In this document: piece after piece, positions 28,664 to 30,517 of the stretch
Position numbering within the stretch: the stretch's first letter is position 1
How the letters are laid out: each line of letters opens with the position of its first letter
Origin: Muribaculaceae bacterium
GTDB lineage: Bacteria; Bacteroidota; Bacteroidia; Bacteroidales; Muribaculaceae
Assembly (NCBI GenBank): GCA_022510425.1
Contig: JAFLTO010000010.1
Location: forward strand, 1-64,000
Length of the DNA: 64,000 bases
Direction: 5' to 3'
Position numbers and translations under genes: made by a program
The notes under the pieces: model-generated
Databases searched by the model: none
The model's input: only the letters and a program-made list of their open reading frames with translations
Told to the model about the DNA's origin: nothing

Positions 28664-29416
28664 ATGATAGGAGAGAAGGCTACATATTTTTTAAGCGATC
28701 TGCATCTCGGAGCACCTTATATGAAAGATACCCGTGAGAATGAATTGCGTATAGTAGCTTTCCTGGAATCTATAAAAAAGGACGCCGACACCATATATCT
28801 CCTTGGTGATATCCTTGATTATTGGTATGAATACAAATATGTGGTGCCTCGGGGTTATGTAAGATTCTTCGGTAAATTAGCAGAACTTGCTGATTCCGGT
28901 GTGAATATTATATGGCTCAAAGGCAACCACGACATCTGGATATTCGATTATCTTCCCAATGAATTGGGGATAGAAGTAATCGATGGAAGCATCGTTGAGG
29001 ATATATACGGAAAGAAATTCTTCCTTAGTCATGGTGACGGTGTTGGAACCCTCGAACCCTCTTTTAAATTCATCAGATCACTTTTCAGAAATAAATTCTG
29101 TCAGTGGGCATTTTCCGGAATACATCCGCGCTGGACAGTGCCTTTTGCTTATAGTTGGAGCGCTCACAGTCGTAAAGAAGGGGAGTCCAGAGGGGTTCCC
29201 GATGAATCTTTACTAAGAAATATCAGGGAATTTGTAAAAGATTATAAGCGCTCACATCCCGAAATCGATTATTATGTATTCGGCCACATACATGTTCTTA
29301 GCCGTGAAGAGATTGAATCGGGTTGCGAGATGATAGTGCTTGGTGAATGGATCCGAACATTCAGTTATGCCCGTTTCTCTTTGGAATCGGGGCTCGAGCT
29401 CCTGAAATGGAAATAA
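28664..29416 (+). CDS. lpxH: UDP-2,3-diacylglucosamine diphosphatase
   Basis: Metallophosphoesterase motifs SDLHLGAP, LLGDILDYWYEY, KGNHDIW, FGHIH. Confidence 0.85.
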   Translation: MIGEKATYFLSDLHLGAPYMKDTRENELRIVAFLESIKKDADTIYLLGDILDYWYEYKYVVPRGYVRFFGKLAELADSGVNIIWLKGNHDIWIFDYLPNELGIEVIDGSIVEDIYGKKFFLSHGDGVGTLEPSFKFIRSLFRNKFCQWAFSGIHPRWTVPFAYSWSAHSRKEGESRGVPDESLLRNIREFVKDYKRSHPEIDYYVFGHIHVLSREEIESGCEMIVLGEWIRTFSYARFSLESGLELLKWK

Positions 29417-29466
29417 ATTATGCTTTAAATTTTTGTTCACGTTTGTGTATCATTGGGCCATTAATA

Positions 29467-29571
29467 TCACCTCAGTTCGAAGATGATTGCAAGGGCTATG
29501 ATAGCTAAAACAGCGATTGAAACAATTATCCAAGTGAGCTTTTTCTTTTTTGAGTTGGTATTATTATCCAT
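29467..29571 (-). CDS. Putative 34-aa single-TM small protein
   Basis: Absent from the ORF track (below its length cutoff). Reverse-strand frame: MDNNTNSKKKKLTWIIVSIAVLAIIALAIIFELR*; basic N-terminus then one hydrophobic helix. Confidence 0.5.
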   Translation of the reverse strand: MDNNTNSKKKKLTWIIVSIAVLAIIALAIIFELR

Positions 29572-29659
29572 ATTTATTTCTTTTTGGAAATCCAGTTGGC
29601 AAAGTTAAGCAATTAACTATATGTTGTGCAACATATTTGGGGATTTTAATGGAAATTTA

Positions 29660-29691
29660 TTTGGTGGAGGAATTTTTCTGCCTTACCTTTG
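29660..29691 (+). promoter_or_regulatory. Bacteroidetes-type promoter upstream of a candidate sRNA
   Basis: TTTG (29660-29663) - 20 bp - TACCTTTG (29684-29691). Confidence 0.6.
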
Positions 29692-29697
29692 CAGTGA

Positions 29698-29795
29698 ACC
29701 TAAAGACAATCTTTTTTACCTTAAGATTAATTTTACCTGTAGAAACTTATAAAGGAGGGTGCGACCGACGAGGTTATCACCCTTCGTTTTTATTA
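29698..29795 (+). ncRNA. Candidate intergenic small RNA of about 100 nt (speculative)
   Basis: Promoter upstream; ends in the GGAGGGTG / CACCCTTC hairpin followed by GTTTTTATT; no ATG-initiated ORF inside. Confidence 0.35.
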
Positions 29796-29800
29796 TTTGG

Positions 29801-30517
29801 TTAAAACTGTATTGATTTGAAAAGATATTCTGCCATAAACCAGTCTTCAGGAGTGTCAAGATCTATGCTTCGTGATGCAGCCATTTCATAAGGCACGATT
29901 TTCTTGAATTTCGACATCGGCGATTTATAAAGCGATTCTGGTGTGATTACATATACTGCTCCATTGTATTCCCACACTTTGGGTGCATCTTGTCTTCTTG
30001 AGAACTGACCCTCTCCCTTAGAAAGATGAAGAAATCCGTTACTATTCATTTCGAAAAGATTGAAATAGGGATTGGCTTTTGATTCCTTCACGCTCACAGC
30101 CATATCGATTCCCGAATTCCATAGCCTAAGGGTGCCTTCTATATCTTCTAACGTGCGGAAAGGGGAAGTGGGTTGCAGAAGCACCACCTTTTCAAATTCA
30201 ATGCCGCGAATTTTATATTCATCGAGCACATGAAGTATCACAGAATAAGTTGAGGCTGTGTCTGAAGCAAGTTCAGCCGGTCGCATGAAAGGAATTTCTA
30301 AATTATGTCTTTCAGCTTCTGCCTTAATATCATTTGAATCAGTGGATACGAAAACAATATCATCAGGTTGTGCACAATTCAAAGCTTGTTTCACAGTTCT
30401 GCTCACAAGAGATTCGCCGCAAAAAGGTTTCAGGTTTTTATTTGGAATACCTTTGCTGCCACCTCGTGCAGGAATAAGCCACAGCGTTCTTCGGGATTCC
30501 TTTAAATGAGAAGCCAT
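29801..30517 (-). CDS. Acylneuraminate cytidylyltransferase-family protein (NeuA/PseF/LegF-like)
   Basis: LWLIPARGGSKGIPNKNLKPFCGESLVSRTVKQAL, VSTDSNDI, LLQPTSPFRTLEDI. Confidence 0.88.
   Translation of the reverse strand: MASHLKESRRTLWLIPARGGSKGIPNKNLKPFCGESLVSRTVKQALNCAQPDDIVFVSTDSNDIKAEAERHNLEIPFMRPAELASDTASTYSVILHVLDEYKIRGIEFEKVVLLQPTSPFRTLEDIEGTLRLWNSGIDMAVSVKESKANPYFNLFEMNSNGFLHLSKGEGQFSRRQDAPKVWEYNGAVYVITPESLYKSPMSKFKKIVPYEMAASRSIDLDTPEDWFMAEYLFKSIQF

Follow-up and report, generated by a model that had tools for sequence, protein, structure and literature searches.

The window, by which we mean the whole 64,000-nucleotide stretch of DNA analyzed, carries the features listed in Table 1 on either side of a conserved 44-nt core. 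Comparison with related genomes confirmed that the interval from 29697 to ~29791 on the plus strand is an independent sRNA gene in this Muribaculaceae genome. A preliminary description of this DNA had proposed a new intergenic sRNA here, with a TTTG-N20-TACCTTTG promoter, a hairpin with a U-rich tail, and no ATG-initiated ORF between the two. The promoter with its 20-nucleotide spacer and the hairpin are present in the window sequence as described, and GTTTTT stands directly 3' of the hairpin arms. The 5' end of the sRNA is placed from the promoter and the 3' end from the terminator, so that transcription would start at 29697. The interval also proved to be free of ATG-initiated ORFs. It is crossed by a TTG-started frame of 84 amino acids, and a small coding ORF was rejected here because orthologues have indels of lengths not divisible by three, which indicates that this frame is not coding.

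Table 1. Features of the sRNA locus and the basis on which each was assigned (coordinates are those of the window).
Feature	Position	Strand	Basis
Cur/BT4338-type palindromic operator TATGTTGTGCAACATA, 13/14 consensus positions	29620..29635		Consensus match, orthologue spacing
-33 element TTTG	29660..29663	+	Upstream of -7 box in nearly all orthologues
-7 box TACCTTTG (TAnnTTTG)	29684..29691	+	29/29 genus orthologues
sRNA gene, ~95 nt	29697..~29791	+	Covariance model R1 match 29697-29793, E 5.9e-15 (the window copy is one of R1's own training sequences)
Near-invariant core ACAATCTTTTTTACCTTAAGATTAATTTTACCTGTAGAAACTTA, 44 nt, predicted FopS-pairing region	29706..29749	+	Orthologue alignment, predicted pairing with FopS 5' region
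Intrinsic terminator hairpin and U tail	29754..29791	+	Covariation; strand from G-U pairs
Outer terminator arms, GGAGGGTG with CACCCTTC	29754-29761 with 29778-29785
Inner terminator pairing, ACC/GGT	29764-29766 with 29772-29774

A DNA search with the locus gave matches in 34 of 61 relatives. Alignment of these loci revealed a conserved cassette that extends from the palindrome (window 29619) to just past the hairpin; the flanks and the neighboring genes vary around it and the core is near-invariant. The cassette mostly lies downstream of an LpxH-like gene in Muribaculaceae, and in other families it is found beside glnS or other genes. All 29 genus orthologues examined have the TAnnTTTG -7 box, and the core, ACAATCT(5-7)ACCTTAAGATTTTTTACCTGTAGAAACTTAT, is almost invariant among orthologues. 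A covariance model built from the orthologue set found the gene in 245 of 297 Muribaculaceae genomes, representing 29 of 30 genera, usually as a single copy per genome. With a wider core pattern, records from Bacteroides, Phocaeicola, Prevotella, Segatella, Paraprevotella, Barnesiella, and Muribaculaceae were retrieved. Outside the Bacteroidales, this core pattern was absent or at chance level, with two isolated matches among the genomes searched. The orthologues share ancestry and are not independent observations. One genome of the same genus (G025, contig C7) carries the sRNA gene twice in tandem, ~480 bp apart (L002).

The terminator provides information about both structure and strand. In its outer helix, changes on both sides were observed in 7 of 8 pairs, and 0 of 500 shuffles reached the observed values. 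Among the helix variants there are G-U combinations and no A-C mismatches, which indicates that it is the plus-strand transcript that is conserved. The predicted plus-strand RNA also folds better than its shuffles (z -2.8), and the minus strand folds no better than shuffles (z -0.7). Folding predicts hairpins inside the core as well; the core columns are invariant and neither back nor oppose these. The preliminary description had named covariation in the hairpin and conservation of the -7 box as checks, and had made the sRNA depend on promoter and hairpin being conserved together. Both were found in the orthologue alignments, and they occur jointly. The conserved promoter, the near-invariant core, and the covarying terminator thus bear out an intergenic sRNA. 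Since the hairpin lies 15 bp past the stop codon of a minus-strand cytidylyltransferase gene, one could suppose that there is no sRNA here, just the terminator of this convergent gene and a chance promoter. This is scarcely credible and is already refuted by conservation: the operator, promoter, core, and hairpin have been retained as a unit at loci that are otherwise unrelated, the G-U polarity is that of the plus strand, and the hairpin travels with the sRNA at most orthologous loci where the cytidylyltransferase is replaced by other genes. In the source genome, the hairpin may also terminate the cytidylyltransferase transcript, as had been suggested.

The claim that this sRNA is new held in part. 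At the gathering score, Rfam had no match at the locus. A relaxed-threshold search matched it to RF04184 (BTnc060, a Bacteroides thetaiotaomicron sRNA) with 37.0 bits and an E of 3.3e-4. The core therefore belongs with an annotated RNA, but the score is far below the RF04184 gathering score of 228.9 bits, a value that neither the window copy nor the matches in 28 genomes of the order reach. Judged by its sequence, the window sRNA is a divergent homologue of BTnc060 and, by Rfam's rule, not a member of the family. The two RNAs have in common the core ACAAUCUUUUUACCUUAA..ACCU..GAAA, a Cur-type palindrome and promoter upstream of it, and a terminator hairpin directly after it. They differ in the third core block, which is CUAAUACCUAUUG in BTnc060 and UUUUACCUGUAG in the window copy, and in the terminator, and the window operator is located 16 bp further upstream. 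The RF04184 model begins ~135 nt before the core, further upstream than the proposed promoter, and the annotated BTnc060 RNA is longer than the RNA predicted in the window. No function of BTnc060 was reported in the literature searched, which lacked one paper expected on Bacteroides sRNA families.

Neither the Cur-type operator nor any function had been part of the preliminary description. Cur (BT4338) is a Crp-type master regulator with the proposed operator consensus wwwTATGTTnTAnAACATAwww (PMC3878776; PMC6989115), and its strongest target in B. thetaiotaomicron is fusA2 (PMC6989115). In the source genome, the sRNA operator is the best match genome-wide, and no other site fits the search pattern perfectly. 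Two sites have one mismatch; one precedes a glutamate dehydrogenase gene and the other lies between a pullulanase-like gene and the Bacteroidota EF-G2 gene fusA2, the product of which matches NCBIfam EFG2_Bacteroid. In all 29 genus orthologues, the operator center is 56-57 bp upstream of the -7 box. The orthologue operators match 10 to 14 of the 14 consensus positions, compared with an average of 8.9 in shuffles, which reach 11 in 2.8% of cases. Outside the genus, 59 of 139 loci have a Cur-type palindrome 40-41 bp from the -7 box. In part of Prevotella/Segatella (e.g. L105, L135, and L137), the palindrome conserved at 62-63 bp from the -7 box, on its upstream side, is a different one, TTGTGTGSGCACACAA; on the evidence of this palindrome, another regulator has replaced or joined Cur at these loci.

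The source genome encodes exactly one CRP-family protein, with cNMP_binding and HTH_Crp_2 domains, and this lone protein is probably Cur. An operator upstream of the promoter and a CRP-family protein in the genome are what a member of the Cur regulon should have, and both were found here. The sRNA thus appears to be switched by Cur, and we infer Cur binding at the operator as well as the sign of its regulation. On the minus strand, a 34-codon unannotated ORF (MDNNTNSKKKKLTWIIVSIAVLAIIALAIIFELR, window 29470-29571) likely encodes a single-span membrane peptide. It has its own -7 box, TAACTTTG (29607-29600), with the Cur-type operator ~20 bp upstream of that box, and the operator may serve both this ORF and the sRNA.

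FopS sRNAs repress susC-like transporter genes by means of a 5' seed that pairs with the translation start codon (PMC11697453). When we searched for complements of the core, the matches included, among others, a locus identified by Rfam as FopS (RF04319). In reverse complement, the 5' region of FopS is CCAAUCUU..GUUAACCUUAAAUCUAAUACCAUGAAAAACAC, and the sRNA in most families has ACAAUCUUUUUUACCUUAAAA..CUAAUACCUAUUGAAAAC. From this block-by-block match, the conserved blocks of the sRNA all have their counterparts in a FopS target, with AUG replaced. The susC start region recognized by FopS is CAAUCUU..ACCUUAAA..CUAAUACC, and the sRNA core is similar to it but without AUG. Because of this resemblance, the sRNA would be expected to pair with the FopS seed and to sequester FopS.

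In the example duplexes, the sRNA and FopS are predicted to pair over 29-39 bp. The mean pairing energy of 53 same-genome pairs is ~-28 kcal/mol, with a mean z of -4.7 relative to dinucleotide-shuffled sRNA; the reversed sRNA gives -10.3 kcal/mol compared with -28.0 kcal/mol for the real one. Full-length cofolding of the own-genome pair, with intramolecular structure included, gave -17.1 kcal/mol compared with -8.2 +/- 2.5 for shuffles (0/200). Conserved columns of the sRNA are paired with FopS in 0.84 of genomes and variable columns in 0.39. FopS of the window genus has an extra U, for which the pairing is -31.6 versus -25.9 with the sRNA of the genus and -28.4 versus -27.4 with other sRNAs. 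The extra-U FopS copies and the changed middle block of the sRNA of this genus thus fit each other best. All 38 genomes that have the sRNA also have FopS, and the 8 that lack the sRNA all lack FopS, a comparison that is small and phylogenetically confounded since the 8 are from distant families. The two properties looked for in a sponge, conserved extended complementarity to the seed and co-occurrence with FopS, were therefore both present. In pairing energy with FopS-a/b, the sRNA ranks first of 10,658 window segments, with other segments reaching -30.1, within 0.5 kcal/mol; for FopS-c, the sRNA is not among the best. Because pairing energy in a single genome is not unique, the argument depends on the pairing being recurrent and collinear across genomes that share ancestry.

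Of 69 fopS promoters, 29 (e.g. L344 and L345 in the source genome; L318, L325, and L332) also have a Cur-type palindrome that matches 12 or more of the 14 positions, compared with 0.3% of shuffles. Most of these palindromes keep one of two distances to the -7 box, 24-27 bp in the window genus and 15-17 bp in other families, neither of which is the spacing in the sRNA promoter.

The sRNA could alternatively act mainly via an RRM protein such as RbpB, with the complementarity to FopS being secondary. This fits with a core that is largely single-stranded and A/U-rich, given that RbpB binds single-stranded sRNA regions and antagonizes FopS (PMC11697453). However, protein binding predicts neither collinear complementarity between two RNAs nor the paired change in FopS and sRNA of the window genus, and we regard this explanation as quite improbable.

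We also examined complementarity to mRNAs, with susC genes located using TIGR04056. In the source genome, complementarity to FopS is higher at susC starts than at the starts of other genes (p 0.011 and 6e-5). By contrast, the sRNA is not complementary to the susC starts of this genome (p 0.93), and a direct sRNA-susC interaction thus found no support. A glutamate dehydrogenase gene of the source genome (L172, C1 ~106000) combines a Cur-type site with a leader that complements FopS, CACAATCTTCTAACC..TCTAATAACATGAAC (-27.1 kcal/mol), and is a candidate FopS target on these sequence features. Searches with the seed complement TTAAGGTAAAAAAGATTGT, allowing up to 3 mismatches, gave control-like counts. 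Matches to AAGGTAAAR-N(0-15)-ATG in 9 genomes were mostly near the reversed-pattern control, with no recurrent gene among the matches read, and a G-U-tolerant seed in 111 genomes mostly yielded one or two chance-like matches per genome.

Several transcripts are complementary to the sRNA itself. In the source genome, the 3'UTR of a susD-like gene (L193, C35 ~8260, minus strand) complements nearly the whole core (-38.9 kcal/mol, 0/300 shuffles); it is either an mRNA-borne sponge or target, or else an inverted sRNA gene copy that has decayed and has a degenerate -7 box. A second 3'UTR of this genome, before a terminator hairpin, is a near-perfect complement of the 5' half of the sRNA (L270, C34 ~212288; -27.2 kcal/mol, 2/300 shuffles), and in genome G004 a 3'UTR before a terminator hairpin contains 17 nt of perfect complement to the 5' half (L238, C1 ~209400). 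A Bacteroides-type genome (G095, C5 ~239056) encodes on the minus strand of L279 a non-coding transcript with a TTTG-N19-TACCTTTG promoter and eight AGG(T/G)A motifs, which is strongly complementary to the BTnc060-like sRNA of that genome (-44.2 kcal/mol, 0/200 shuffles). The transcripts of L193, L270, and L279 may be sponges, targets, or decayed inverted gene copies. The 3'UTR complementarity means that FopS may not be the only partner of the sRNA.

These observations bear on the idea that this is a Cur-controlled trans-acting sRNA with mRNAs as its main targets, bound at AGGU sites in, for example, 3'UTRs, and that FopS is a decoy that limits it. The sRNA has three ACCU/CCU motifs in single-stranded stretches, and its complementarity to the two source-genome 3'UTRs, to the L279 transcript, and to the 17-nt site in G004 could be read in this way. 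However, the search in 9 genomes gave no recurrent site upstream of start codons, the seed matches in 111 genomes are mostly chance-like, and the 3'UTR sites could be decayed inverted sRNA gene copies, whereas the complementarity to FopS extends over every conserved block and is found again in many families. We therefore consider mRNAs unlikely to be the main targets.

Other RNAs offer points of comparison. FopS/GibS (RF04319; PMC11697453, PMC7366714) is like the window sRNA in its proposed circuit, its similar size, its single-stranded 5' part followed by a terminator, and, often, a Cur-type site in its promoter. The two are not homologous; the window core is complementary to the FopS seed and resembles the FopS target. 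The RF04319 model had no match in the window, nor in 29400-29900 even at E<=10. MasB (BTnc201), a Cur-activated sRNA of B. thetaiotaomicron, is likewise assigned to the Cur regulon and is ~100 nt long. Unlike the window sRNA, which is found order-wide and has an sRNA as its predicted partner, MasB is reported to be narrowly conserved and to have the mRNA of BT_1675 as its target (PMC10994844).

Taken together, these data make it reasonably probable that the sRNA is a Cur-controlled decoy, or sponge, for FopS that relieves repression of polysaccharide utilization loci (PULs) at carbon limitation. The gene stands alone, with a predicted sigma-ABfr promoter and a putative operator upstream for Cur, the CRP-family regulator of carbon limitation. 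At carbon limitation, Cur would increase the level of the sRNA, the core of which would pair with the FopS seed over 29-39 bp and sequester FopS. With FopS titrated, susC and other mRNAs repressed by FopS would be translated. Pairing of the two RNAs in the cell is predicted, and we infer the direction of the effect, that the sRNA acts as decoy rather than as target. More tentatively, with chances slightly short of even, this could be a switch common to the order Bacteroidales, in which a multicopy FopS and a decoy that mimics the start codon region are both wired to Cur so that starvation releases susC translation.

Elsewhere, sponges and target mimics such as SroC and the chbBC trap for ChiX are RNAs that imitate the target of a regulatory RNA and titrate the regulator. 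Compared with these, the window sRNA is a free-standing gene with a CRP-type carbon-limitation operator, it is found in Bacteroidota, and its partner is a multicopy sRNA. No FopS sponge, nor any such RNA in Bacteroidota, was described in the literature searched. The gene is a divergent homologue of an annotated sRNA, and the decoy function is a new and testable proposal.

How FopS repression is lifted at polysaccharide loci is only partly explained so far, by RbpB antagonism. If the proposal is true, a Cur-controlled decoy would form a direct link between the master regulator for carbon limitation and the post-transcriptional control of PULs in dominant gut bacteria, and, as far as the literature searched shows, no sRNA sponge would have been described for Bacteroidota before it. 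BTnc060, which is annotated and unexplained, would gain a function that can be tested in B. thetaiotaomicron.
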